The position numbers and the translations under genes were made by a program. Under the pieces are notes generated by a model that saw only the letters and a list, made by a program, of their open reading frames with translations, ran no database searches and had not been told where the DNA came from. From NCBI GenBank assembly GCA_011390205.1, contig JAABSX010000005.1, positions 62,001-126,000 on the forward strand: 64,000 nt of DNA. The letters are read 5' to 3'. Within the stretch, counting starts at the first letter, position 1. Each line of letters starts with the position of its first letter. Below are positions 19,853 through 36,984 of this stretch, in pieces. This DNA comes from Microscillaceae bacterium. GTDB lineage: Bacteria > Bacteroidota > Bacteroidia > Cytophagales > Microscillaceae.

Positions 19853-20917
19853 CTAAGATATTCGCTCATTTACAAGTTTGCTTACTTGATTTGCAGAATA
19901 TACTGCACCTTCCATATAGCCAGGATGGACGGTGGAGGTCTCCGTGCCTGCAAACCATAGTTTATTGTCAAAATATGTTTTTGCAAATACCTCATGCCCA
20001 TTGTTTTGGTGTGGATACACTGCTACTTTTTCTTGAAGTTTGCTTTTGGTGTAAGACTCTTCTGCCCAGATACATTCTTCGTAGCTCAGGTAATCATTGG
20101 CTTCCTTGCCGAATATTCTTTCTAGCTGTGCCAAGATTTTTGCTTTTCGGTCTTCTTTCGAAAACTTGGCATAGCCTCCACCCACAAAGCCACAAAGTGC
20201 AAAATATGTCTGTGTGCTGTCCGAATGGTCATAAAACTCTGTAACAGGCCCCACATTGCTAAAAAGTATGCCCGAGTATTTTTTTTCTCTCCAAAAAGGT
20301 GTAGAATAAATCAAGGCTACTTTGATAGAATCTTGCATCCAAGTATGTGTGTGAAGCGCTATTTCACGTAAATCACTGGGAAGTGTGGGGCTAAAATCTA
20401 CCGTATTGAGTAGCAAAGCGGGCGGAAGTGTAGAGATAAGTATTTCTGTACCAAAGCTTTGTGTTTGGGTGTGTATTTTGACTTCTGTCTCCTCAAAAAC
20501 AAGAGATTGAACTGCTTGAGTAAAATGAATTTTTGTATTTTGGAGTTTGTCATAGATGGCATTCAAGAGAGCAGAAGTCCCCCCTGAGATTCTGTAGCTT
20601 GGGCTATCCTGCGGAATCTGTACGGCTTGTGCGGGTGCTGTGGAGAAGGCTTCAAAGAATGCAGTTCCTTGCATGTATTGCTCAAAATGAGGGATAGAAA
20701 ACTCTTGTAGCAAGGCTCGCAAGTTTAGGTGCTGCACCCCAAACCAAGTAGCACCCATTTCTACGGGTGTATCTTTGCTACTTTTTAGGGTGCGTATTCG
20801 CCCGCCCATGCGCACTCTTGCCTCTAGGATAGTAGGACTAAAACCTAGTTTTTCAAGGCGATAAGCAGTGAGCAAGCCCGTAAGCCCTGCCCCCAGAATA
20901 GTAATTCTAGGATTCAT
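19853..20917 (-). CDS. FAD-dependent amine oxidase family protein
   Basis: 354 residues. The N-terminal dinucleotide-binding motif ITILGAGLTGLLTAYRLEK is followed by ILEARVRMGGRIRT, the GG-doublet motif of flavin amine oxidases. The C-terminal FAD-contact motif LWFAGTETSTVHPGYMEGAV is also present. Length is on the short side for monoamine oxidases (about 450), and the substrate domain looks reduced. The start codon overlaps the end of the GAF-domain gene by 11 bp on the same strand, so the two are probably one operon. The substrate is unknown; amines, protoporphyrinogen-like compounds or carotenoids are all within the superfamily. Confidence 0.85.
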   Translation of the reverse strand: MNPRITILGAGLTGLLTAYRLEKLGFSPTILEARVRMGGRIRTLKSSKDTPVEMGATWFGVQHLNLRALLQEFSIPHFEQYMQGTAFFEAFSTAPAQAVQIPQDSPSYRISGGTSALLNAIYDKLQNTKIHFTQAVQSLVFEETEVKIHTQTQSFGTEILISTLPPALLLNTVDFSPTLPSDLREIALHTHTWMQDSIKVALIYSTPFWREKKYSGILFSNVGPVTEFYDHSDSTQTYFALCGFVGGGYAKFSKEDRKAKILAQLERIFGKEANDYLSYEECIWAEESYTKSKLQEKVAVYPHQNNGHEVFAKTYFDNKLWFAGTETSTVHPGYMEGAVYSANQVSKLVNERIS

Positions 20918-22289
20918 GTGATTTGTTTTTGATGGCTTCTAATTCTTGGCGGAGTTCTTCAATAATTTTACGATAATCTTCCTCACGTTGCTCAAGGTCT
21001 TTTTTGGTAGCTTGCAGTTCTGCGAAGTTACGCTTCAGTGCATTGTCATTTTCTGCCAAGGTATCTGCCTGTGCCTGTGCTTTTTCTAGCAAGTATTTCG
21101 TGTATCTGTATGATTTTTGGTTAAAGACCCAAGCACCGAGGTTTCCGCCTGCTATTTCTAAAAGTTTTCTTTTATATAGTTCTATTTCATCTATGCCTAG
21201 TATCTCTATGACCCCTTCTATGTTTTCTTGAAAGATAATAGGGACGAGCAAGATAGATTTTGGTGCTGCTTGCCCAAGTCCTGAGCCTATTTTGAAGGAT
21301 TCTGCGGGGATGTCTTTGATATAGATTGTCTTCTTGTTGGCGGCACACTGCCCCACGAAGCCTTGCCCCCAGAGTATTTCTTGATTTTTTTTTCTTTCTA
21401 AATCTCCTGCAAAAGCTACCTCGAGTCGGAGTGTTTTTTCAGATTGTTCATCTTGTTTAAGCAGGTAGATAGCTCCTTGGTGTGCATCTAAGGCTCTCAC
21501 CAAATCAAATAGGTATTTTTGTAAGATTTCTTCTTCACTGAGTGCACTCTGGACAAGCTGGGCCAAGTTACGCAAGACGACAGATTGCCAGTTTCTTTGC
21601 TTGATTTCGGTTTGCTGTGTTTCTGTTTCCTCGATTTGTTTTTTAAGAGTTTCTTGCTGATTAATGATAAAAATATTCTGCTCCTGCAAATCATTGACAA
21701 GCTTTTGATTTTTTTTGTCTGACCTCCAATCACGAAAATTTAAAATAAATAAAAGCAATGATAAAATAATAAAACTAGAAAACACGAGGGTCTGTGTAAA
21801 AAATGCCTGTTCAAATAAGTCCTTAGGATGGTTTGTTTCTAAGTAATCAATAAAAACAGACTGATTCATCAGGATAAACAAGTTAAAGGCAATGGTAAAA
21901 GAAAGCAGAATGTACTCTCTTACATCCATAAGAAGCCAAGGCAGTGTAGCCAAAGCAAACAAAAAAACCATCATTCCGTATTGGGGTATTTCTCCTGCGG
22001 GGATGGCATAGCCATGTATGACTGAGCATAATAAAAGCATTACCACCGAAATGATGAAACGAGCAATGTAATGAAGCAGCAAATAATTCAATAAAAGTGC
22101 AGCACATATAAAACCTAAGCTCATCAGCAATACAGGCACAACTGGTGGGAAATATAGTACATAAAACAAAAGATAAATGAGTGCAATAGGAATTGCAACA
22201 AGAATGGTGATGTTGGTAATGCGAATACGGTTCTGAATGTATGCAAACTGGTGCTCTGAGACTCCTATATTAATTATATTTTTTAGCAT
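20907..22289 (-). CDS. Multi-TM membrane protein with GAF domain and coiled coils
   Basis: 460 residues. Six or seven membrane helices fill roughly residues 25-205 (for example ITILVAIPIALIYLLFYVLY and LVFSSFIILSLLLFILNF). A coiled coil, a GAF domain (about 240-390, with GQGFVGQC and GSGLGQAAPKSILLVPI) and a second coiled coil rich in Glu, Lys and Gln to the end follow. There is no kinase, cyclase or DNA-binding domain. The GAF closely resembles that of the 949-residue sensor at 9763-12612, including the GQG and SGLG signatures. It overlaps the FAD oxidase gene and follows the large CHAT gene after 249 bp. A ligand- or redox-sensing adaptor role is inferred. Confidence 0.82.
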   Translation of the reverse strand: MLKNIINIGVSEHQFAYIQNRIRITNITILVAIPIALIYLLFYVLYFPPVVPVLLMSLGFICAALLLNYLLLHYIARFIISVVMLLLCSVIHGYAIPAGEIPQYGMMVFLFALATLPWLLMDVREYILLSFTIAFNLFILMNQSVFIDYLETNHPKDLFEQAFFTQTLVFSSFIILSLLLFILNFRDWRSDKKNQKLVNDLQEQNIFIINQQETLKKQIEETETQQTEIKQRNWQSVVLRNLAQLVQSALSEEEILQKYLFDLVRALDAHQGAIYLLKQDEQSEKTLRLEVAFAGDLERKKNQEILWGQGFVGQCAANKKTIYIKDIPAESFKIGSGLGQAAPKSILLVPIIFQENIEGVIEILGIDEIELYKRKLLEIAGGNLGAWVFNQKSYRYTKYLLEKAQAQADTLAENDNALKRNFAELQATKKDLEQREEDYRKIIEELRQELEAIKNKSHES

Positions 22290-22538: not shown

Positions 22539-25500
22539 TTAATTAACACCCACCATCACGAAAGCACCCCATAGTGAAGGCTTTTGGTAGCGTTCTTTGA
22601 TGATTTTTTGGGCATAATTAAATGCCCCTCTTTTATTGCCTGTTTTGAGCCACTCCGAATAAAAGGCAATCATAAGCTCTTGGGTTACTGCATCATCTAC
22701 CTTAAACAAACTCATGACGATGGCATCAGCACCTGCCACTAGGAAAGCTCTCTGCAGCCCATACACCCCTTCGCCTACTGCTACTTTGCCCAGCCCCGTC
22801 TCACAAGCACTCAATACAACAAGGTCAGTATCTTCAAAACTGAGGTTCATCACTTCATAAGCAGTAAGAATACCCGAGACACGGTCTAAGACACTGGATT
22901 CTTGGGCGAGCAAATCCCCTGCACCTCTCATGAGCATTCCTGTGTTTCGGAGGGGGTCATTTTGTAGATTTTGGAGGCTATTGAGTAGACTAAAATTGGC
23001 TTCTTCTTTTTGGAGAGGCTCTTTAAAAAATCCGTGTGTAGAGATGTGCAGTACTCTTGGGCTGAGTATATTTTTGAGTGTATCTTCGGTCGCAAGGTCT
23101 TGTTGATACATAGAGATTTTCCAGTTGGGCTGGTCTTCATAGAGTTCTTTGATTTTTCGTAGCTCTATCTCAGTGCCAGGCAAATCTGCAATTTTGGCAG
23201 GTGTGCCTGTGCTTTCAGAAGTATAAAAAGTAGGATTCCCGATTAAGACCATGTGTTTTTCTTGTCGGCTGTCTATTTCACGTTGTCTTTTTGATTTTCT
23301 TCCTTGTTTTTTATCCATCAGCAGGAGGTCTTTGGTATTGCTCACTAGCTTGATTTCCTTTTGGTCTATCACAAATTTATCCTCATCTATTCGGAGGGCC
23401 TGCACATTTACTTGGTTATAGACTCCGTCAGGAGAGAGAAATACGGTTTGGTAGTCTTGTAGTTTTTCGTGGATGGGTTTCCAGAATTGCTCATAAGAAT
23501 ACTTGTCGTTTTTGTCATATTGTGTAGTATTTCGGTAGTATCTAAGGTATTTGCTTTCTAGCTCCTCCCCATTTTCTAGCAAGACTAGCTCGGGGTTTTT
23601 GTTGGTTTGTGCCGTTACGATGAGGGCGGCATAGTATATCTTGTCTTCGGAGAATCCATTTTCGTATTTTCTAAATCTGATAATCTCTACGGCAGCTTCA
23701 TTTTTAGCAAGTCTTTTTTTGACATCTTTCCAAGAGTAGATTTCTGTTTCTAGGCTATTTGCAAAGAGGTCTGAGCGTGTACTAAGGTCTTTTTCTATTT
23801 GATTGATTTCGTTTCTGAGGTCAAGTGGGTTGATTTCTTCCTCGATAAGTTGTTCATCACTCATTGCCAAGATTTGTGTGAGTTCTTCTTTTTTCTTGGT
23901 CCATTGCATAAATAACTCTTTGAGTTCGGCATCATTGCTACTAAGGATGCTTTTCCTTACTTTGAGAGAGGAGCTGAGCAAGAGGGCTTTGGTAGCAAGC
24001 TGAAAATCATACATATTTTCTAAAAATCGAGGGTTTTGGCTGGCTTGGCTGACTGCCAGCGTGTTATAGAACTCAAAATCGGGCTTGATTTTATTCCAGA
24101 ATTTTTCTTTTTCTCTTTCACTGAGTGCAGGAAAATAAGTTTTGATAAACTCTAAGTAGGCTGCTGTAGTTGATTCTAAGATTTTATTGGCTTCTTTGGC
24201 ATCTCCACTCACAAAATACATTCTGCCTAGCTTGCTTTGTGTATTGATGTAATCAGGATGATTCTTACTGAGCACTTTTTTATAGATACTTTCTGCTGCC
24301 TCGTAGTTGGTTTTTGCTTCTTCAAATCTCTTCAAGAAGGCATAGACATCTCCTGTGAGGGAGTAGGCTTCGGCAGAGTTGAGGTTTTGGTTTCCTAGTT
24401 TGTTGAGCCATATTTGATTTGCCTGGGCGATTACTTTAAAGGCTTCATTGTATTGTGCATCTTCTATGAGCACTGCACCTTGTGTTTTGAGCACTTCGGC
24501 ATAGAGAGGGTGCTGCGTATCAAAGGTATTCGCCGTAATAATTTTGGCTTTCTCAATCATTTCTAAGGCATTTTTGATTTGGGTTTTATCTGCATAAAAC
24601 TGTACCAAACCTGATGCAGCATAGGTTTTGGCTACATTTACGTGCTGCTCCCCTAGTTGTTTTACCTGGATATCGAGTATTTGGTTGAGATATTCTCTGG
24701 CACGCTCATAATCACCGATGGTGCTGTAGTATTGTGAGAGAAGCTGGTAGCTGCCTATGGTTCTTGAGTTGTTTTTTCCGTAGGTATCCTGTGCTATTTT
24801 TTCAGCACGTTTTGCATAGCTTTCAGTCGTTTTGTAATCTCCTTTGATGAGGTATAGCTGCCCTAAGTTATTGAGTGATTGGATAAGGTGGTAGCTGTGT
24901 TTTCCGTACTTATTTTCTTTTTGGAGGATGTCTTCTTGTAGGAGGGCTTCTGTTTGGGCATACTTTCCGATAAGGATATAGAGAAAGGCCATTTCATCTA
25001 TGGAGCGTCCTCTTTTGGTAAAGTCATCTATTCCTAATTTTTTGTAGATTCGGTCAGAGCTTCTGATAAGGCTTTCAGCCTCACTGTATGCCCCGAGTGT
25101 CCCATAGATTTTTGCCATCAGTGCAAAAGCATCTGCACGCTCGGGGGAGCGTCTTGGCAGTTCTTTTTTGATAATTTGCAGAGAAGTCTGCCCGCTTTGT
25201 TCGGCCGCTTTGTATTTTCCTAGTTTGAGCTCGAGGTCTGCCTGTTTGCTTAGCTGTATGGCAGTTCGGATGTCTTTTTCTCCAAATTTCTGGATGGTAA
25301 GCTCTGTGGTTCGGTAGATTTTCTCGAGGGCTTCTTGGGGTCTATCCACCAGTTCAAAATAACTTGCGATGGTGTTGGCGATGTTGGGGTAGTCTTTGTG
25401 CAGGTCGCTTCTCTGCTCAAAGATGTTTGAATAAGGTTCTTTTTTCAGAATTTCTTTTATTTCATCAAAACCATCTGCAAACTGAAAAAGGTAATGTGCA

Positions 25501-26759
25501 AGTTTTACTTGATATACTTGGTAGTGTAGCGTATTTTTTCCGTACACTTTCTCCCGAATGACGAGGCTGCTATCAAGGTAGATGCGTGCTTTTTCGGGGT
25601 TGGGGGCTAGCTCGGTATAGAGATAGTAAAGCTGGTCAAGCACTTCTAGGCGTGTAGGGTGCGTAAGGGGCAGGTGTGTGAGGGGCGCTTCCCAGACTTG
25701 TAAGAAGAAAGAAAGGGCTTCTAAACCTTCCCCTTTTTCTAGGCTCATTTGCCCATTGAGTAAATCTTCTTCATAGCCGTAGATGAGTCCTTTTTTAAAA
25801 TTGATGACGCTTACTTTTGTAAAATCATTAATTTCTTTGTTGAAGTTATTGATTTTTTCTTGATATATGAGGCTTTGGAGCTGTCCTTTGAGTGCTTCTA
25901 GCTGTTCATATGGGGCTTTTTTGGCTTCTTTTACAGCTTTTTCAGAGTATTTTTCAGATTGTTTGTAGTCTTCTTGGTCAAAAGCATTTTGTGCTTGTGC
26001 CATTAGGTGAGGCACAAGCACACTTGGCTCTGAGGTTAGTTGGTTGATTTGTTTTTCTGCTGCATTGAGTGCAGAGTCAGCTTGCGGATAAAGCCCTTTT
26101 TGGCCAAGTGTCTTTCCGTAGAGTGTCAGGAGTCTGGCAGTTTGGGCTTGTCTGTAGCCTTTGTCATTTTTGCTTAGTTTCCCCCATGTGCCTGTGTTGG
26201 CATTGGCAAAGTTTTCCCAAGATTTGGTGATTTCTGGAAGCTGGTCTAGGGTTTGGTTTAAGAACCCTAAATGATGCTGCACTTGCACCTGTCTGTGTGC
26301 TACTTCGGCTTTCAAAAATTCATCTGTGATGGGCTGTGTTTGCATAAAACCAGCCAGTTGTTTTAGTTGTGCTTGTGCTTCTAGGTAGTTGCCCAGTTTT
26401 AGCTGGATGTCTGTTATTTTGCATTGTGCTATCAAGTAGGCATCGGGGCTTACATTTTGTGCTAATTCTAAGATTTTATTTGCTTCCAAGAGTTGGGTTT
26501 GCATGTCCAAGTATTGCCCTTGCATCTGTCTGATGTTGGCTTCATAAATCATCATCCAAGCGTAATAAACATTGTTTTGGTTGAGTTTTTTTTCTACAAC
26601 TTTCTTATTTTTTTCTGCTTTAATGAGGGCTTTTTCATATTTTCCTTTGCTAAGTTGTTTGTCTGCTTTCTCAAAGAAGGTTTCCCAAGAAATCTGGGCT
26701 TGTGTAGAGCTACACATGATAAAACTGAGGATTATAATGGTATATAAATATTTTTTCAT
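22539..26759 (-). CDS. Exported TPR-CHAT protein, predicted cysteine protease
   Basis: 1,406 residues. A signal peptide (MKKYLYTIIILSFIMCSSTQAQ) is followed by about 900 residues of tandem TPR units, with recurring patterns such as NNLGQLYLIKGDYKTTESYA and YQLLSQYYSTIGDYERAREY, then a helical linker and a C-terminal CHAT domain. The caspase-like dyad is intact: His near 1242 in LHISTHGFF and Cys near 1319 in VVLSACETGLG. CHAT domains belong to the caspase/separase clan, and some are activated through their TPR parts, for example TPR-CHAT of type III-E CRISPR. An exported form would act in the periplasm or at the surface. No lipobox or T9SS domain is present. A paralogue lies at 58786-61689. 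Confidence 0.88.
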   Translation of the reverse strand: MKKYLYTIIILSFIMCSSTQAQISWETFFEKADKQLSKGKYEKALIKAEKNKKVVEKKLNQNNVYYAWMMIYEANIRQMQGQYLDMQTQLLEANKILELAQNVSPDAYLIAQCKITDIQLKLGNYLEAQAQLKQLAGFMQTQPITDEFLKAEVAHRQVQVQHHLGFLNQTLDQLPEITKSWENFANANTGTWGKLSKNDKGYRQAQTARLLTLYGKTLGQKGLYPQADSALNAAEKQINQLTSEPSVLVPHLMAQAQNAFDQEDYKQSEKYSEKAVKEAKKAPYEQLEALKGQLQSLIYQEKINNFNKEINDFTKVSVINFKKGLIYGYEEDLLNGQMSLEKGEGLEALSFFLQVWEAPLTHLPLTHPTRLEVLDQLYYLYTELAPNPEKARIYLDSSLVIREKVYGKNTLHYQVYQVKLAHYLFQFADGFDEIKEILKKEPYSNIFEQRSDLHKDYPNIANTIASYFELVDRPQEALEKIYRTTELTIQKFGEKDIRTAIQLSKQADLELKLGKYKAAEQSGQTSLQIIKKELPRRSPERADAFALMAKIYGTLGAYSEAESLIRSSDRIYKKLGIDDFTKRGRSIDEMAFLYILIGKYAQTEALLQEDILQKENKYGKHSYHLIQSLNNLGQLYLIKGDYKTTESYAKRAEKIAQDTYGKNNSRTIGSYQLLSQYYSTIGDYERAREYLNQILDIQVKQLGEQHVNVAKTYAASGLVQFYADKTQIKNALEMIEKAKIITANTFDTQHPLYAEVLKTQGAVLIEDAQYNEAFKVIAQANQIWLNKLGNQNLNSAEAYSLTGDVYAFLKRFEEAKTNYEAAESIYKKVLSKNHPDYINTQSKLGRMYFVSGDAKEANKILESTTAAYLEFIKTYFPALSEREKEKFWNKIKPDFEFYNTLAVSQASQNPRFLENMYDFQLATKALLLSSSLKVRKSILSSNDAELKELFMQWTKKKEELTQILAMSDEQLIEEEINPLDLRNEINQIEKDLSTRSDLFANSLETEIYSWKDVKKRLAKNEAAVEIIRFRKYENGFSEDKIYYAALIVTAQTNKNPELVLLENGEELESKYLRYYRNTTQYDKNDKYSYEQFWKPIHEKLQDYQTVFLSPDGVYNQVNVQALRIDEDKFVIDQKEIKLVSNTKDLLLMDKKQGRKSKRQREIDSRQEKHMVLIGNPTFYTSESTGTPAKIADLPGTEIELRKIKELYEDQPNWKISMYQQDLATEDTLKNILSPRVLHISTHGFFKEPLQKEEANFSLLNSLQNLQNDPLRNTGMLMRGAGDLLAQESSVLDRVSGILTAYEVMNLSFEDTDLVVLSACETGLGKVAVGEGVYGLQRAFLVAGADAIVMSLFKVDDAVTQELMIAFYSEWLKTGNKRGAFNYAQKIIKERYQKPSLWGAFVMVGVN

Positions 26760-27050: not shown

Positions 27051-29300
27051 TTAGTCTTCGGCTGGGTGTGTTTCGGGGAGTGTAAACACAAAACACAGTC
27101 CATCTTTGTATTCTGGTCTGATGAATGCCTGCCCTCCGTGGCTTTTGACTATTTTCTCTATATAAGGGAAGCTGTAAGCTAAGGGTCTTGCTTCTTCTGG
27201 ATTAAATTTTTTGAAGGCACTCTGCATCATATTGGCAGGGATATTTTTGCCTTGGTCCGTAAAAGTAGTTTGCACCCACCGCTGCCCGTCTTGCCTGATG
27301 AGCTCAGACTCGATGTGTATGCTGCTATTGTTGGGTGCATATTTGAGCACATTGTAAAACAAGGCAGTCATCATCTCTTCTACATAAAACTCATCTACAT
27401 TTACAAAAAAGTAAGGTCTTATTTGGTTATTCAGTTGAATATTTTTCTGTGCCATGAGTGCCTCACATCTCTGAAATGCACGGCGTGTAACTTTAAACAA
27501 TGAGTAAGAAGACACCTGTAGCTCTAAGGTATCGGGCAGATTCTCAGTTCTGTATATTCCTTGCAAAAGGTTGATGATTTGCTGTCCTTGCTGTAAGACT
27601 TGTGGAGTGAGTCTATTTTCTGTACCTTGGCTAAAGAGTAGCTTCATGGGGGGCACTATCTCACGATTGATTAAATCTATCAGAAGTGTGTTTTCCGTTC
27701 TTGCATCGTCTAGTTCTAGGTTTGCTTTCACAAGTCTGGTTTTTCCTTCTTGTATATTTTTTTCTTTTTCCCGCAAGAGGATTTCTTGTCTATTGATGAA
27801 GCTTTGCTTTTCGTTGATTTGCGTTTTTCGTTGGTCTATGATTTTATTTTTTGAATGATTGACAAAGAGCAAAGCCAGCAGAGAAAGTGCAGAGAGGCTT
27901 AGCAACACAATGAACCAAATGTTTTGATGAGCACTTATATTTTGAATTTGTTTATTTTTTTGCTCAGACTGTCGGTTTAGCACATCTATTTGAGATTCTT
28001 TCTTGTCTTTTTCACGCTCTAGCTGGCTCACCTCACTTTCTTTTTGATTCAGTGAAAGATTGAGGTTGTCTTCTTCTAGCTTAAGCTCGGCTTTGAGTTC
28101 AGCTTTTTTGAGTGCAGATATTTTATTGTCTCTTGCGAGTTGGTCTATATTTTCAGATTTTCGGTCTATTTCTCTTCTAAGCTCGGCTTTTTCTTCGGCA
28201 TTTGGGCTAGAGAGGTTGGGGTTGGCCATGGTGTATCTTCTCTGTGCCTGAGATTCTTGTTGTTTTTTAAATTGGGCTACATTTCTTTGGATGGCATCTA
28301 AGTCACGGTATGCCTGCTGATAGCTTGCAAAAAGCTGTTCGTATTCTTCGGCTTTTTCACCAAGTCCTTGGTTTCGGCTCAGTTTTCCGAGGGAGGTATA
28401 GCAGTTTGCTATTCCTTTGATAGAAGCAGAGAGTGTGTTTCCGTTGCTGGCAAAGTCATATTCTTGGGTAAGCACATAGGCCTGAAAGTAGTATTTGAGT
28501 GCTGTTTTGTAGTCTTGCAAGTGCAAGAAATGCACATCGGCGATTTGGTTCAGGTTTTCGGCGAGCAATCTTTGATTTTTCAAGATTTCACTCATTTTAA
28601 TGGCCTCTTGCAGATTTCGGATGGCTGCAGGATAGTCATTTTGATACAACAAATGCGTGCTGGCAATTTTTTGTAACATCCTGATACGGCTTTCTGGCAG
28701 ATTTTCGGCTCTGTAGAGGTTGTAAGCCCTTTGGTATTGGCTGATGGCTTCACTTGGGTTTTCACCTAGTAGCCAATCCCCGAATACCTCATAAGCATCT
28801 GCTTTGCCTTCTGTATAAGAGAGTTTTTCGGAGATTTTTAATGATTGAGCAATAAACTCATAAGAGCGTTTTCTATCTTCTTTGAGGTAAGTATGTGCAA
28901 GGGCATTGAGTGCTGCTACTTTTAAGGATTGGTTTTGGATTTTTTCAGCCTTTGTGAGAGCACTCTCGAGGTGTTTTTTTGAGTCTTGTAGCTGCCCATG
29001 TACACGCTTCACCTTTCCTAGTGTGATGAGTGCATAGGTATTTGCCTCCGAGCTGCCATTCTCAGGAAGCATTTGATATGCTTGCTGTGCATACTGCAGG
29101 GATTTGTCTTTGTCTAGCACTAAAAACAATTCTGCTATTTTGCAAAAAACAATGCTTTTCTCATCTACTGATTTTGCAGACTTTGCAGAAGCCAGATAAG
29201 ACTCCATTTTTTGCTCATCGGTCTGGGCACGTGCATTCATTGCCAAACCAAAGCCTAGCCAAATGCTAAATATAAATATGTATTGAACTAGCCACCGCAT
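27051..29300 (-). CDS. TPR membrane protein with degenerate histidine-kinase module
   Basis: About 749 residues from the ATG at 29300 (a TTG 6 bp upstream is less likely). A signal peptide (MRWLVQYIFIFSIWLGFGLA) leads to extracytoplasmic TPR units (about 30-330), a long charged coiled coil, one TM (NIWFIVLLSLSALSLLALLF, about 470-490), a cytoplasmic coiled coil, a DHp-like helix and a HATPase_c-like domain. The DHp position that normally reads H-E/D-hydrophobic-R-x-P is NREIVPP: the phospho-accepting His is replaced by Asn. In the ATPase the N-box Asn survives (LFYNVLKYAP), but the G1 box is DQGKN rather than DxGxG. It is probably a kinase-dead sensor. The CHAT gene lies directly downstream. 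Confidence 0.82.
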   Translation of the reverse strand: MRWLVQYIFIFSIWLGFGLAMNARAQTDEQKMESYLASAKSAKSVDEKSIVFCKIAELFLVLDKDKSLQYAQQAYQMLPENGSSEANTYALITLGKVKRVHGQLQDSKKHLESALTKAEKIQNQSLKVAALNALAHTYLKEDRKRSYEFIAQSLKISEKLSYTEGKADAYEVFGDWLLGENPSEAISQYQRAYNLYRAENLPESRIRMLQKIASTHLLYQNDYPAAIRNLQEAIKMSEILKNQRLLAENLNQIADVHFLHLQDYKTALKYYFQAYVLTQEYDFASNGNTLSASIKGIANCYTSLGKLSRNQGLGEKAEEYEQLFASYQQAYRDLDAIQRNVAQFKKQQESQAQRRYTMANPNLSSPNAEEKAELRREIDRKSENIDQLARDNKISALKKAELKAELKLEEDNLNLSLNQKESEVSQLEREKDKKESQIDVLNRQSEQKNKQIQNISAHQNIWFIVLLSLSALSLLALLFVNHSKNKIIDQRKTQINEKQSFINRQEILLREKEKNIQEGKTRLVKANLELDDARTENTLLIDLINREIVPPMKLLFSQGTENRLTPQVLQQGQQIINLLQGIYRTENLPDTLELQVSSYSLFKVTRRAFQRCEALMAQKNIQLNNQIRPYFFVNVDEFYVEEMMTALFYNVLKYAPNNSSIHIESELIRQDGQRWVQTTFTDQGKNIPANMMQSAFKKFNPEEARPLAYSFPYIEKIVKSHGGQAFIRPEYKDGLCFVFTLPETHPAED

Positions 29301-29381
29301 ATACAATTAGAAAAGAGAGATGAATATTTTTGTGTTTTATTGATGTCTTAACCTACGTATTATTAAATATTTTTTGCTCTG

Positions 29382-29739: not shown

Positions 29740-32700
29740 TTACATCACTATCATTTTTCGGGATACTTGCTGATTCCCGACTTTGAGCTGTATGATATAA
29801 AGCCCTGGCGCAAAGCCTTTTGAGCTAAATGTCAGTTCATTTTTACCTTCTTGCGTACTGATGATTTTTTCTGTTTTGACATTTCCCATCATATCACTGA
29901 TTTTGATGCCTGCTAGATTCCCAAATGCTTTAAAACTTAGTTTGAAATCATCTCCTGCTTGGATAGGATTAGGGTGCAGTAGCATCTCTAGGTCTTGTAA
30001 ATTTTCAAGATTAACCTGAATGATGGCACCGAGCTGGTCATTGTTGTTTGCTCCTATCATACGCAGGCGATAATAAATCACAGACCTACCCTCAGGCAGT
30101 TGATAATCTACAAAATCATAGCTTTGCAGTTCATTCAGACCTCCGCGTGCTTCTACCTGACCTATGGCATAAAAAGTAGCTCCATCTGTGCTTCTCTGGA
30201 CTTCATAACTTGTTAGGTTATTTTCATTCAGTGTAAGCCAGCTTAGCAGTACTTTATCATTTACCAATCTACCTCCAAAATCAAGCATGCGCATGCTGAG
30301 CGAAATACCGAGTGCCTCTGGCTCATCGGCAAGCTCACAGGCATCTCCTCTAAGCAAGGCATCTAGTGCAGCTTCATTGTTACTTGAGCATTGCTGGAAT
30401 GAGATGTCATCTATGGCAAAGTCATTTCCATTTTTAGAAAGAGAAAGGTTTTCAAAACAAAGATTGAGCTCTGTAACATTTAGTGGTGCACGATAGATAC
30501 AGCGAACCACCTGCCATTGGTCTGGCTCTTGTGGCAAGAAGAAATCTGAACCTAGGGATTTGAGTCTAGAGTTGGGAGCTTCTCCATCTGTATTACAGGG
30601 CATGGCAGCACCAAAGGCAAAGCCAAGTGGGGCTGCTTTTCTCATATTTGCATCATCAGGTGGTTCGGGGATGTGCTGCGTATAAACCCCTGTGGTATAA
30701 GTAGTGCCTGGCAGACGAGACAGAGGCGTAAGGCTTGTGGCACCTTCAGCAGGGAGTACACCAGGGTTATTGACATCTTCCATATCACAGACAGTGATTC
30801 TGAGCTGCGGCACATCCCCAGATTGATTGATGCTTTTTACGTTGTTAAACCATGCCGTAAACACATAGTATCTATTAGGTACTGCGGCGTTGCCTGATAT
30901 ATCAATGGTCTGACACCAGATTTTGCCTGCCTCTTGGTTGGGGTAGTCGGCTGGTTTTTTCCACCAACCGTTGATTGCCATAAAGTTTGCTTCGGCGGAG
31001 TTGGGGATGAGTGCAGGCAAACCTGCTGAGGGTACTCCGAATCCTTCACAAGCTTCACTGCCGACACCAGCACCTCCTGTGGCACAGTAGGCGGCTGAGA
31101 AGTTCCAAGAGTTGCCCCCACCATAGCCTACTTCTCCGTTTCCGTAACTAAACCAGTTTGTTTTGTAGTTATTCATGGTGTGCGTCACACTGTATAGGCC
31201 TTCTGGATTAAATTCCCCTTTCGCTGCAAAAAGCCTTCGTTGGCTATTGTCATCTCCACCACTTCCACCTGCGACATCTCGCAAATAACCATAATCGGTA
31301 GCAAATCTCGCATAGAAGTCTATGTTTTGCTGGTCATTGCTGTGTTTGTTGTATCTTCTGATGTCTGGATTTTCGTGAATCCATTCCTGCGTTCCTGCAA
31401 AGCTTGAGGGGTTCGGGTTAGATGCTGTATTGAGTGCTTTCCAGTTTGCGAAGTTTCCATCCACTACCAGCTCACCCTGTAACTCACACCTTACAAACTC
31501 AAAGACCCTGACCAGTCCTGGCATATTTTTACCACTATTTTTGACATTCATTACCCTGACTAGGTAATTTCCTCCAGGTACTACACTAATCGTAACAGAT
31601 TCTGTACCTCTCCAGACATTGTTGGCACAATCTACCAGTTCGAGATTGCTGAGTGTACAGGCAGCAGCATCATTGTTAATAGATTCAGGTGTATTCGGGG
31701 GCAATAATCTATATACAGCAATGGCAGCATTCTCAGAGTTTAGGTCGGTAGAAGAAAACCTGGTATTGTCAAACTGCACAGTTACGGCATTGACCTGTAG
31801 GTCAGGGTTTACATTGATAGGCACATTGAAGCGCACCCAGCCATTGCTTACTATAGGTGGGTTGGGGCTTGAAGGGTTAGAGCCATTGGGTATCACACAG
31901 ACAGGATCTTGGATGCTTGTTTGTGGCCTTCTATCCGTCCAAGTACTTGCTACTTCAAAGCCTTTATAAGTGCCATCTAGTGGGCCGTAGTCTAGCGTAG
32001 TAGCACAGTTTTCCCTTGCGATGGTAGGGCCAAAGAAGATACACAGTTTGCCGAAGCTCGTCTTGGCAGGGTCTTTATTGATAATTCTGATATAATACGT
32101 CTCGCTTGCATTAATCGTAACCGGAAAGTTAAGGCTTTCTACACCTTCTACGGCAGTATCTATGCAGCCTACGAAATCGTAAGTAGAAGGGTCAGTACAG
32201 TCAAACGTACCATTCTCTCTATACACCTCTAAGACCACATCTGGGGCAGCCGTGAAGTTATTGTCATTATTGTCATATTGCACTGTGATGTTATTGGCAG
32301 GAAGCGGAAATACAAGTACTCCACCTAGACCTGTGGTGAAAGTAGCCCAAGCATCTCCCTGATTGGTGATGGCAGGGATGCAGCCAGCAGTAGGGGCACT
32401 AGCTGTATTGGTATTCAATACATTGAATTGAATATTACAAGCCCCCACATCCTCAGGGCTTCCGAGTGTAGAACGGATATCAATCACCCTTGCAGCTGCA
32501 CAGTCATCTGCTCCTGTCTCTCCTGAGAAGATACAGAGAGTGCCTGTCATTGCTCCGACATTCAAATCCACTACCCTTAATATGTATAATTTACCTGCTT
32601 GAGTAAGAATGGAGACAGACTCAGTCTGCTGCCCTGTAGAGTGTATATTTCTACAAGCGACTTCATTGGCACTGTTTCCAGCTCCATAAATCCCGATACC

Positions 32701-35700
32701 ACAGTTGACAGGGCCAGGATTGGCAGTATAAATCATGAGCATGGGGTCACTGGTGGTTTCTCCATTTTGATATTGTATGGTCATGTTGGTGCCATCACCT
32801 AAGAAACGAATCCAGGCATCTCTTGAATCAGCACCAAACGTAACTCCTGAGCAAGCACCTGAGCCATTGGTAGCTGCACCAGTATTGCGGAAGGTAGCAG
32901 GAATATTAAACCTGACATTACAGGCATCAGGGGTGAGTGTGATGATGTCTTGGTCATCACAAACATCTCTCTCTCTGGTATCAAAAAGGCAGATACGCCC
33001 AAGCATATCTCCTGTAGTGCCTACATTCATCATCCTGATATAGTAGGTCTGCCCTACTAGAGTATTGAATGCTACGGACTCTACGCCGTCTATTTGCCCG
33101 AGTGCATCAGCACAAGCTACGGAGATGAGCCCTGCGCAGCTCCCTCTATAAATCTCAACAGCAGCATCTTTTCCTACATTTCCTGAGATGAAGTACTCTA
33201 GTGTGGTTTGTGAAGTATTGGCTGTAAAGCTCGCCCAAGCATCCGATTGTAATGTTTTGGACCCAATACAAGAAGGTGCAAGGGGCTGATTATCAGGTAA
33301 ATCGGTTTCTAGCAAATTAAACAATATATCACAATCGCCTACCACAATAGGGCGAGCAGTACTGCAAAGGTCTTCGGGTCTTACACCTCCATTGCGGATA
33401 CAGAGTGTGCCTACCAGTGAGTTCTCACTTTCTAAATTTATGACTCTGATGTAATAAGTGCTGTTGGGGTCAAAGTTAGGTGTGGTACTGGTCAGCGTAA
33501 CGGACTCTGTGCCTTCACTGAGTGCATTGGCACATCCGATCTCAGTCAAGGGGCTGAATACTGCAAATCTGCCGCCTGTAATCTCTGCTCCGATATTTAC
33601 TATTTCTATGAAGTAAGTGCCTGCTGCAGAGAAGGTTACAGGAGAGTTATTTGGGAAGTCCGCAATGTAGTTTACCCCACTGTCACGAATCGTGAATGCA
33701 TCAATCGCACCTGCCTCGAAAACCAAGGAGTAAGTGCCAGGGGCTGGAATACTAATTCTTGCCCAGACACTCCCAGTCGGTACTGTAATACCCTCATGAA
33801 AAGTATCAAAAACTAGAGCCGTGGTAGCTCCCCCCGAGGTCGTGGCTATCCTATCGGGTGTAGTGGATACTGGAGCATTGATGGGGCTGCCTTTATAGAC
33901 GACTAGTGCGGCATTGTCAGCTATGTCGGCATCTTGGTTGTCATTATTGTATTCAATCACTAAGTCATTTGTAGGCAGTGCTGCACCTGTCTGAAACTTC
34001 GCCCAAGCATCTATCTGTGACGACTCCGTGGCACAAGATACATTCAGAGGAGTTGCAAGTGCAGCCCCTCCTGTGGCATTAAAGCTAGAAAGGATGTTAA
34101 ATTGTTTTCCGCAGTCTGTACCATCTATCTGATATTGCAAGGCAGTGTAGAAATTATCCTCTGCTTTCTTACCTTGGTCATAGATACAGATATTCCCTAT
34201 CATCTCATTGCTTGCCTGATTTATAATCCTGATATAATAGGTCTGACCTGCCGTTACTGCAAAACTTGCCACGAGTGTATTGGCGGGTAATCCGCTACTG
34301 GCACAAATAATATTGGGAGAAGTGCCCAAACTGGCACAATCAAACGGAGGGGCAGCATTGTAAATAATCATATTGGGGTTATAGACTGTGCTTGCGCCGT
34401 CAGCGATGTACTCCACTTGTACACTGGTTACGCTTGCGTCTGTGTGGGTGTAGCGCATCCAGATGTCATTGTTGTCGGGGGCACAGGCAGCAAATCCAGA
34501 AGGGGTGAAATTGGCAGGGATATTTGCTTTTACATTACAATCGCCCAAATTTAGGCTCACTGCGGAAGCTACGGCATCTGTGCAGTTGTTTCTCGGGATG
34601 ACATTGTAAAGACATATTTTACCTACTACTGTCTGAGTGTTCTCTATGTTCATAATCCTGACATAGTAAGTGCCTATGCTTGGTGCAGTAAACTCTAAAT
34701 ACTCTTTTTGGTCTGTTCCTGATGTAATGACATTGTTTGCACACTCGATTAGTGTCAAATCACTGCATGAGCCGCCATAAACTGCAAGGGCTACATCTGT
34801 TATTTCACTTTGGTATTCTATCCCGATTCTCTGATTGACATTGGTTACATCAAAGCGTGCCCAGCCATCTCTGAATATCTCGGTAATGCCGCAGCCAAGA
34901 GGGTTGGCTATATTCTCGTTATTGAAAAAAGAAGAAAAAATTTCTATCTGATAATCACAGGTACCTATAGACACTTCTTGTGCTTCATTGCAGAGGTCTC
35001 CAGGCTGTGCAGGTCCTGAGAATACACAGAGGTTTCCATCCATGTTCGCTCCATTGCTAAATAGATTTACTACTCGCACATAGTAAGTAGTAGAAGGTGC
35101 GGCATTGAATGTAATGGACTGTGTGCCGTCATTGTCTGATACTGAGCAGCTTAATAAATCTAGTGTGCCGCCACAAGTCCCTGTATAGACCATCAGCAGG
35201 GCATTGTGTTGGGTTATTTTGAGTGTGCCAGACATGGGGTTGTCAGATTCTATGTTCATCACCTGTATGTCATAGGTTTGTATGCCTGCTGTGGTATTGG
35301 TAAGGGTTACGGATTCTGTACCTACTCCATTTACATCATTTCGGAGTGCTGCAAAAGTACCCGTGCCTGGGCATCCTCCTTGATAAACAGCCAGGGCAGC
35401 ATTTTGATTGGTATTGCTATAAGTGATGGAGAACTTTTCACCTGCCTGAGCGGTGTAGCGTATCCAGCCCTCTCGTTGCACAGTTACAGTAACTCCAGCA
35501 TAGGTAATAAGTACAGGTGTAACAGTTTGGCTGATGTTAAATGCTCCGCCTGTATTGGCTGCGATTTGTGTGCCTGCTGCCCCCGTAGCACAGTCATTAT
35601 ACACAGTGAATGCAGTATTGGTGATGGGAGGAGGAGTGTGATTGTATTGCACCACCACTCTGTTGTCGCCTCCTGAGAGAGAGGTAAAGCCTGCCCAGCC

Positions 35701-35925
35701 GTCTCTGATATTAGCTCCACTTACACTGCTACAAGCTCCAAGAGCTATTCCAGACCAGTTTGCAGTGCCGACTCTAAATTCGGGGCTGCTACAATCATTG
35801 ATGGGGAGTGTGGTAGTGGCTGTGATGTCTCCACAGGTATTGGCTAAATCGGTTTGGGCATTCAGATTGGTTTGTAATAATAACCAACTAAATACAATTC
35901 CTAAGATAGATATTTTAAGATGCAT
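29740..35925 (-). CDS. Very large secreted repeat protein with type A T9SS sorting domain
   Basis: 2,061 residues. A signal peptide (MHLKISILGIVFSWLLLQTNLNAQ) is followed by about ten beta-sandwich repeats resembling PPC domains, spread over roughly residues 90-1510. Each ends in a motif like TYYIRIINQAS then GNICIYD, often after an ESVTL-type strand, and several hold conserved Cys. A jelly-roll-like segment (about 1510-1850; DGNFANW near its start, NDFAIDDISF near its end), a fibronectin-like domain (LLSWLTLNENNLTSYEVQRS) and a C-terminal T9SS domain (LHPNPIQAGDD to GLYIIQLKVGNQQVSRKMIV) complete it. No catalytic domain is seen, so adhesion or binding is the best guess. PorX in the same window controls T9SS in relatives. 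Confidence 0.92.
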   Translation of the reverse strand: MHLKISILGIVFSWLLLQTNLNAQTDLANTCGDITATTTLPINDCSSPEFRVGTANWSGIALGACSSVSGANIRDGWAGFTSLSGGDNRVVVQYNHTPPPITNTAFTVYNDCATGAAGTQIAANTGGAFNISQTVTPVLITYAGVTVTVQREGWIRYTAQAGEKFSITYSNTNQNAALAVYQGGCPGTGTFAALRNDVNGVGTESVTLTNTTAGIQTYDIQVMNIESDNPMSGTLKITQHNALLMVYTGTCGGTLDLLSCSVSDNDGTQSITFNAAPSTTYYVRVVNLFSNGANMDGNLCVFSGPAQPGDLCNEAQEVSIGTCDYQIEIFSSFFNNENIANPLGCGITEIFRDGWARFDVTNVNQRIGIEYQSEITDVALAVYGGSCSDLTLIECANNVITSGTDQKEYLEFTAPSIGTYYVRIMNIENTQTVVGKICLYNVIPRNNCTDAVASAVSLNLGDCNVKANIPANFTPSGFAACAPDNNDIWMRYTHTDASVTSVQVEYIADGASTVYNPNMIIYNAAPPFDCASLGTSPNIICASSGLPANTLVASFAVTAGQTYYIRIINQASNEMIGNICIYDQGKKAEDNFYTALQYQIDGTDCGKQFNILSSFNATGGAALATPLNVSCATESSQIDAWAKFQTGAALPTNDLVIEYNNDNQDADIADNAALVVYKGSPINAPVSTTPDRIATTSGGATTALVFDTFHEGITVPTGSVWARISIPAPGTYSLVFEAGAIDAFTIRDSGVNYIADFPNNSPVTFSAAGTYFIEIVNIGAEITGGRFAVFSPLTEIGCANALSEGTESVTLTSTTPNFDPNSTYYIRVINLESENSLVGTLCIRNGGVRPEDLCSTARPIVVGDCDILFNLLETDLPDNQPLAPSCIGSKTLQSDAWASFTANTSQTTLEYFISGNVGKDAAVEIYRGSCAGLISVACADALGQIDGVESVAFNTLVGQTYYIRMMNVGTTGDMLGRICLFDTRERDVCDDQDIITLTPDACNVRFNIPATFRNTGAATNGSGACSGVTFGADSRDAWIRFLGDGTNMTIQYQNGETTSDPMLMIYTANPGPVNCGIGIYGAGNSANEVACRNIHSTGQQTESVSILTQAGKLYILRVVDLNVGAMTGTLCIFSGETGADDCAAARVIDIRSTLGSPEDVGACNIQFNVLNTNTASAPTAGCIPAITNQGDAWATFTTGLGGVLVFPLPANNITVQYDNNDNNFTAAPDVVLEVYRENGTFDCTDPSTYDFVGCIDTAVEGVESLNFPVTINASETYYIRIINKDPAKTSFGKLCIFFGPTIARENCATTLDYGPLDGTYKGFEVASTWTDRRPQTSIQDPVCVIPNGSNPSSPNPPIVSNGWVRFNVPINVNPDLQVNAVTVQFDNTRFSSTDLNSENAAIAVYRLLPPNTPESINNDAAACTLSNLELVDCANNVWRGTESVTISVVPGGNYLVRVMNVKNSGKNMPGLVRVFEFVRCELQGELVVDGNFANWKALNTASNPNPSSFAGTQEWIHENPDIRRYNKHSNDQQNIDFYARFATDYGYLRDVAGGSGGDDNSQRRLFAAKGEFNPEGLYSVTHTMNNYKTNWFSYGNGEVGYGGGNSWNFSAAYCATGGAGVGSEACEGFGVPSAGLPALIPNSAEANFMAINGWWKKPADYPNQEAGKIWCQTIDISGNAAVPNRYYVFTAWFNNVKSINQSGDVPQLRITVCDMEDVNNPGVLPAEGATSLTPLSRLPGTTYTTGVYTQHIPEPPDDANMRKAAPLGFAFGAAMPCNTDGEAPNSRLKSLGSDFFLPQEPDQWQVVRCIYRAPLNVTELNLCFENLSLSKNGNDFAIDDISFQQCSSNNEAALDALLRGDACELADEPEALGISLSMRMLDFGGRLVNDKVLLSWLTLNENNLTSYEVQRSTDGATFYAIGQVEARGGLNELQSYDFVDYQLPEGRSVIYYRLRMIGANNNDQLGAIIQVNLENLQDLEMLLHPNPIQAGDDFKLSFKAFGNLAGIKISDMMGNVKTEKIISTQEGKNELTFSSKGFAPGLYIIQLKVGNQQVSRKMIVM

Positions 35926-36106: not shown

Positions 36107-36150
36107 ATAGATGGCTTTACACACTTTTTTTCACTTAAAATACTAAGTTG

Positions 36151-36984
36151 ATGGATGAATACAGCAAAACAAACGACATAAATATACATTATCTCATACA
36201 CTCAGACAAGCAGCCTGGTATTTTGCTGATGCACGGGCTGACTGGCAATGCACATGCTTTTGATGGACTTGTAGAGGCTGGGCTCTCATCTCAACATCAG
36301 CTTATATCGGTAGATTTAAGGGGAAGAGGGCTGAGTGATAAGCCTAGCAAGGGCTATAGTATCTCTACACATGCTAGCGATATTATATCACTGCTGGATG
36401 AGTTAGGGATAGAGAAAATACACTTAGGAGGACATTCTTTTGGTGCTTTCTTAGGCTTATATCTTGCCAAACACTATCCTGATAGAGTAGATAAACTCCT
36501 GATGCTCGATGCTGCTGCAAGGCTTCACCCTGATACTAAAGAGATGCTTGTGCCTGCAATGGGCCGACTAGGGCAAAGATTTCCTTCTTTTGAAGCATAT
36601 TTAGAGAAAATAAAAAATGCTCCTTACCTTGATTTTTGGGATGATGCCATGCTTAGTTATTATCAGGCAGACATACAGACTTTTAAAGACGGCTCGGTAA
36701 GCCCTCGCTCCTTGCCTGAAAATATGGCAGAGGCTGCTACTGCAGTCTTGAGTGAGCCTTGGCTAGCGTATCTTCTGGATGTAAGCCATGATACACTGCT
36801 CATCAATGCTACGGGTGTTTACAGCCTTGGTGCGGCACTATTGCCTAAAGAAATGGCGCTAGAAACTGTAGAAATGATGCAAAACTGCCACTATGTGGAA
36901 GTATCAGGCAATCACCAAACGATGCTCTACGGAGAGGGAGCAAAACAGACCGTAAAAGCAATACACACATTTTTGGCGTCTTAG
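36151..36984 (+). CDS. Alpha/beta hydrolase
   Basis: 277 residues from the ATG at 36151. The alpha/beta hydrolase fold is shown by the oxyanion-region ILLMHGLTGNAHAFDGL, the strand LISVDLRGRGLSDKP, the nucleophile elbow LGGHSFGAFLGL with Ser in GHSFG, and a late His in EVSGNHQTML. The acid is probably the Asp in LLMLDAAAR or a later one in the cap region. It has no signal peptide and should be cytoplasmic. Esterases, epoxide hydrolases and C-C hydrolases share this pattern, so the substrate cannot be given. It stands alone, with a good -7 box upstream, and is convergent with the ATL gene. Confidence 0.88.
   Translation: MDEYSKTNDINIHYLIHSDKQPGILLMHGLTGNAHAFDGLVEAGLSSQHQLISVDLRGRGLSDKPSKGYSISTHASDIISLLDELGIEKIHLGGHSFGAFLGLYLAKHYPDRVDKLLMLDAAARLHPDTKEMLVPAMGRLGQRFPSFEAYLEKIKNAPYLDFWDDAMLSYYQADIQTFKDGSVSPRSLPENMAEAATAVLSEPWLAYLLDVSHDTLLINATGVYSLGAALLPKEMALETVEMMQNCHYVEVSGNHQTMLYGEGAKQTVKAIHTFLAS

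Follow-up and report, generated by a model that had tools for sequence, protein, structure and literature searches.

A conserved Microscillaceae family of TPR receptor pseudo-histidine kinases that may signal by binding rather than by phosphotransfer

Work on conserved pseudo-histidine kinases of natural origin has so far been limited to a few cases. DivL of Caulobacter crescentus is, in the portions of its description available to us, a kinase without activity that recognises a phosphorylated receiver by docking and leaves it unaltered (PMC4211667). The available accounts describe RocA of group A Streptococcus as a membrane-spanning pseudokinase that acts by binding the kinase CovS, and a frameshift variant of ChrS from Corynebacterium glutamicum, which came from laboratory evolution, as a kinase-dead protein that acts through heterodimers. 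Here we describe a family of TPR receptors from Microscillaceae that appears to be of this general kind, on which no literature was found among open-licence PMC papers.

The gene was found in a 64,000-nucleotide stretch of DNA from a Microscillaceae bacterium (the whole stretch analysed, called the window below) at 27051..29306 on the minus strand, where it was delimited by its open reading frame, Pfam matches and orthologues and forms a single open frame; all parts of it given below lie on the same strand. Starting at the TTG codon at 29306 it encodes 751 aa, and starting at the ATG at 29300, two codons on, 749 aa; residues of the window pseudokinase are numbered from the TTG. From the N-terminus onwards the protein comprises a signal-peptide-like segment, TPRs, one transmembrane (TM) helix, a coiled coil, a DHp-like helix pair and a HATPase_c domain. 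The periplasmic TPR region covers 28302..29138 (approximately residues 57–335; the outer limits are approximate and the extent is partly deduced from the sequence), and its Pfam matches TPR_12, TPR_16 and TPR_10 fall at residues 131–332 (E = 1e-12 for TPR_12). The hydropathy profile has only the signal-peptide-like peak and one TM peak (2.61 at residue 463), the latter marking the helix at 27855..27920 (residues 463–484). The DHp-like helix pair, which contains no histidine, lies at 27537..27719 (approximately residues 530–590), and the Bergerat-fold HATPase_c domain at 27069..27386 (residues 641–746), assigned by the predicted fold and by a PF02518 match of E = 4.3e-9 (37.2 bits versus the Pfam cut-off of 26.4). 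Neither HisKA nor PAS gave a Pfam match in the window protein even at E ≤ 10, TPRs being found instead of PAS.

The predicted fold of the window protein matched DHp-CA kinases in Foldseek and VIA-align, with DivL (4q20) second by E-value in the Foldseek list, and the CA part of the model aligned to CusS with Z = 17.1 over 137 residues at 2.3 Å. The DHp helices are retained in this model, which was built from 4 sequences (pLDDT 76, pTM 0.55), and the DHp-CA fold is thus predicted to persist in the window protein.

The 12 orthologues (window included) were aligned with 38 comparison kinases, which had been picked as tail-sharing, tail-near or next-best matches and are therefore not a random sample. 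In this alignment, the phospho-His column of the window protein is occupied by Arg548, with Asn547 at H−1, acidic Glu549 at H+1 and Pro at both H+4 and H+5 (motif NREIVPP, 27648..27668). Asn would come to stand at the site only if the register were set by the proline at H+5. In either register there is no His at the site, and the DHp stretch of the window protein is wholly His-free. An earlier reading of the letters alone (the sequence-only reading) had put Asn in place of the phospho-His: the loss of His holds, and the aligned residue is Arg548 rather than the Asn one place before it. The same reading had looked to conservation of Asn across orthologues for support, which was not borne out, since the column contains R (1), Q (1), E (6), K (1), D (1) or N (2) (n = 12). 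The canonical His, whose retention in orthologues it had named as a ground for rejection, was seen in none of the 12, versus 37/38 comparison kinases. In the accessible text of a published survey, 0.9% of HisKA domains were His-less (722/76,471; PMC12632262), and measured against this rate the presence of His in 0/12 aligned orthologues is a loss exceeding chance. We also considered a second His elsewhere in the DHp region and set it aside: His residues do occur here and there in some orthologues, L009 having as many as 4, with no column shared by the family, and the window protein has none.

The ATPase site is degraded in part. The N-box remnant YNVLKYA (27336..27356) keeps its second Asn (Asn652) in 12/12 orthologues but has Ala648 in place of the first, so that the earlier statement that the N-box remains is right for Asn652 only. 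The G1 box, correctly read before as DQGKN instead of DxGxG, is at 27243..27257; its Asp684 and Gly686 are kept in 12/12 orthologues, as is the F-box Phe698, whereas the second Gly is missing in 11/12 (present in 1/12 versus 36/38 comparison kinases). The sequence-only reading had missed the degraded G2 and a deletion in the ATP lid: the segment ARPLAYSF (27168..27191) contains the family-invariant Arg707, the G2 position reads PLAYSF with GxGxG gone, and the lid is 6 residues shorter. Throughout the family, the Phe-to-GG spacing is 25–27 (12/12 orthologues; 27 in the window) versus 27–34, mostly 33, in the comparison kinases, and the pattern GxG[LMI] is found in 3/12 orthologues versus 35/38. 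Among the features of a catalytic HisKA kinase, the window protein thus lacks the phospho-His, a complete G1 (DxGxG), the ATP lid and G2 (GxGxG), and it has the HATPase_c domain and the DHp helices as judged by Pfam and the predicted fold. As far as the alignment tells, the residues needed for autophosphorylation are gone.

Regarding its distribution, relatives of the window protein at E ≤ 1e-20 were found as single copies in 12/15 genomes of the family Microscillaceae and in 0/276 other genomes (291 of the order searched). The three family genomes without an orthologue are the least complete (79–86%), and with 3/15 lacking it the gene is not proven essential. With a profile built from the 12 orthologues, these scored at least 545 bits and the best other gene in the 291 genomes 205 bits; the outside genes next in the ranking (L114–L119) all bear the His. 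In the tree, the 12 orthologues form one clade (support 100/98) on a long branch, apart from all 38 comparison kinases. Ka/Ks was 0.064 for the pair G006/G007 and 0.156 for G010/G012 (0.056 and 0.155 for the kinase part alone), the window gene belonging to neither pair, and in 12/12 genomes the frame has no internal stops and the architecture is conserved. A single clade, single-copy conservation and low Ka/Ks argue that the family is not decaying; by these sequence criteria it is a conserved pseudokinase family and not a one-off, in which the kinase fold is kept, catalytic residues are lost and, in the orthologue pairs, selection maintains the gene. The sequence-only proposal of a kinase-like membrane receptor incapable of autophosphorylation is upheld to this extent, with the canonical His in 0/12, one clade and purifying selection in two pairs.

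Five orthologues (G001, G005, G006, G007 and G013) continue for ~75–140 residues past the HATPase domain. This tail is helical by low-confidence prediction, had no Pfam match in the two scanned, and was not reliably folded in a model of the tailed form (mean pLDDT 60.6). In 5/5 of these, a gene for a receiver–coiled coil–class III cyclase protein lies directly downstream on the same strand, overlapping the pseudokinase gene in two and separated by 1–58 bp in the other three. The window form has neither tail nor partner gene, and in the seven untailed orthologues, one of which (G002) runs off its contig so that six downstream sides were seen, the partner gene was beside 0/6; the only tail found in the G002 genome sits on an intact kinase. 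This match between tail and partner rests on about four tailed lineages and two untailed clades and, with so few independent lineages, is suggestive rather than a large sample. In 5/5 partners the cyclase lacks the two metal Asps as well as the catalytic Asn and still has the Asp of YDxW (in G013 the cyclase part is missed by Pfam and shows only in the alignment of the family itself), the receiver keeps Asp and Lys, and the partner Ka/Ks is 0.081.

In a six-frame scan of ~600 bp behind six untailed genes, no tail or receiver remnant past the stop codon scored better than E = 0.08. A search for an unlinked pseudocyclase in the window's own genome (G000) gave 9 cyclase matches at E ≤ 1e-8, of which 7 have visible metal sites, all with both Asps in place, and 2 are fragments at contig ends that retain Asn and Arg; elsewhere this inspection covered most of the G003 matches, one in G004 and one in G009. 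When a model was built from three partners, the remaining two scored only 35 and 28 bits with it, less than intact cyclases, so that a divergent unlinked pseudocyclase could be missed.

The tail, found in 33/193 genomes of the order at E ≤ 1e-6, is also carried by intact kinases: tail-bearing comparison kinases keep the His in 25/25, and a REC gene stands beside the tail or kinase gene in 10/20 fetched loci. The sensor-kinase tail (A4; L007, L009, L011, L014 and L021) measures ~75 residues, had no Pfam match at E ≤ 1 in three proteins scanned, and sometimes appears in a short open frame that has no other feature. An intact TPR-kinase-tail/REC-adenylyl cyclase pair with overlapping genes is present in the window's own genome (G000:C52; L082 6021–9813); in it, the kinase keeps the His (VHDLKNPL), the cyclase keeps both metal Asps, Lys, Asn and Arg, and the best solved relatives of the cyclase are adenylyl cyclases; from its sequence, this pair is likely a two-component route to cAMP. 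The simplest history would derive the pseudokinase family from such a kinase/REC-cyclase pair: both enzymes would have died, in some lineages without being separated, and the window lineage would then have lost tail and partner. A separate TPR kinase in G006 (L095_3; L095 6604–8346) has Gln for the phospho-His (AQDLKKPL); it is the sole His-less comparison kinase (1/38) and groups with intact kinases, outside the pseudokinase clade.

The gene had also been described as lying directly upstream of a CHAT protease gene. By position this is correct, a TPR-CHAT gene following 291 bp downstream in the window, but no CHAT homologue adjoins the orthologue at the 11 other loci within the stretches fetched, so the adjacency was treated as local and a functional CHAT link was set aside. 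The TPR-CHAT protein itself (22539–26759, minus strand) has a signal-peptide-like start and intact-looking HISTHG (1238) and LSACETG (1316) motifs, which make it a possible periplasmic CHAT protease. On the other side, the window gene at 36148–36984, alpha/beta hydrolase-like to judge from its sequence, is 63% identical to L035_11 of G003, where it directly adjoins the pseudokinase, and this ties the two loci together; between pseudokinase and hydrolase-like gene the window has a gene for a 2061-aa T9SS cargo protein with PPC domains (29740–35925, minus strand). In five genomes (the fifth, G005, by position) a gene for a small membrane protein with the motif YPFxRFGMFAEP is divergent to the pseudokinase gene and likewise links these loci; since it is missing from G000, G003 and G004, it was rejected as an obligate partner. 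This small protein (L036 8473–8898 and relatives, A7) has no Pfam match and occurs in 9/15 family genomes. A further window gene at 20907–22289 (minus strand) encodes a protein in which a GAF domain and a coiled coil are combined with a membrane part weakly resembling MASE7, with no output domain, and overlaps an amine oxidoreductase-like gene.

Taken together, we favour, with a probability of about 0.62, a receptor pseudo-histidine kinase in which a TPR sensor, a TM helix and a coiled coil lead to a DHp/HATPase module without His autophosphorylation that signals by binding. By analogy with DivL and RocA, non-catalytic docking is the most likely mode, the module gripping proteins rather than passing phosphate; docking is deduced from the linkage in five relatives and from known pseudo-kinases, the window genome having no linked partner. 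The periplasmic TPRs would sense a ligand or protein, and the signal would reach the dimeric DHp as a conformational change to be read out by binding. The tailed form, taken as ancestral, would most likely have been bound by the receiver domain of the REC-coiled coil-pseudocyclase encoded next to it, and this pseudocyclase could then gate active class III cyclases; where tail and partner are absent, as in the window lineage, the DHp surface would have to rely on a receiver protein or kinase from an unlinked gene. The linkage points to a receiver-domain protein rather than a kinase as the binder, though the module may instead bind another kinase, as the sequence-only reading had also suggested. 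The pocket residues that persist hint that nucleotide may be bound weakly or in an altered way and serve as a structural switch. A more detailed version, which we put forward only tentatively, holds that in the tailed relatives both two-component halves are catalytically dead and signal by shape, tail and DHp gripping the receiver and the pseudocyclase heterodimerising with active adenylyl cyclases and so gating them; the window form would be stripped further, having lost tail and partner jointly, and would now depend on a receiver from an unlinked gene, perhaps the one in the intact REC-cyclase that its genome also encodes.

Somewhat doubtful, though with precedents in the available accounts of RocA–CovS and ChrS–HrrS, is a heteromer in which the DHp joins the pseudokinase to an active paralogous kinase, whose activity is thereby altered. 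The single-copy gene has no linked receiver in untailed species, the modelled DHp helices are kept and an intact tailed TPR kinase is encoded in the same genome, all of which would suit such a heteromer; however, a kinase gene stands beside few orthologues, intact kinases being nearby only at the G005 locus, and the long branch separates the family from all 38 comparison kinases. The ATPase residues bear on another reading, in which ATP/ADP or some other ligand would occupy the shortened Bergerat pocket, with no catalysis taking place, and so gate the receptor. The N-box Asn, the G1 Asp and Gly and the F-box Phe persist in 12/12 despite the lost catalytic and lid features; yet they may be kept for folding alone, the phosphate-holding lid and G2 are shortened or gone, and even DivL, whose lid is present, binds TNP-ATP weakly (57 μM) in the available part of its description (PMC4211667). 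We regard a nucleotide sensor of this kind as unlikely.

The residue at H+4 bears on a third reading, that the kinase reaction was lost and a partner receiver is still dephosphorylated. Asn or Thr at H+4 belongs to the HisKA phosphatase motif and is found in 27/38 comparison kinases, and the orthologues have Pro in 10/12, with Arg and Thr in one each, which makes a phosphatase-only role distinctly unlikely even though the residue at H+1 is acidic in 12/12 and the His is, according to the accessible survey text, not essential for HisKA phosphatase activity (PMC12632262). That the gene is a decaying remnant without function is scarcely credible: catalytic residues, and in some lineages tail and partner, have indeed been lost, but the stop-free frames in 12/12, Ka/Ks of 0.06–0.16 in the measured pairs, the invariant pocket residues and the conserved architecture argue against decay.

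Compared with known systems, the binding receptor favoured here resembles DivL in that the His is replaced, the DHp-CA fold is kept (predicted, for the window protein) and autokinase activity is absent or expected to be absent, as far as the available DivL text goes (PMC4211667). DivL, which comes from a different phylum, has PAS sensors, Tyr at the His site and a kept ATP lid, whereas the window protein has a TPR sensor, a single TM helix, Arg at the His site and a lid 6 residues short; Tyr is absent from this site throughout the family, where R, Q, E, K, D or N stands. RocA shares the membrane-spanning pseudokinase character but, in the available account, which mentions no TPRs, keeps a dispensable histidine and has six putative TM helices, in contrast to no DHp His and one TM peak in the window protein. 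The ChrS variant is likewise kinase-dead; according to its available description it carries a frameshift in the CA domain, whereas the window protein belongs to a conserved natural family. Closest at hand is the G000:C52 pair, which has a similar kinase module, a tail in common with the tailed pseudokinases and a REC-cyclase directly downstream, and differs in keeping the His and the cyclase residues listed above. The single-copy family thus has intact sibling systems in the same genomes and a dead cyclase neighbour in five relatives, and since intact and dead pairs can be compared side by side, the role of a non-phosphorylating kinase fold becomes directly testable.
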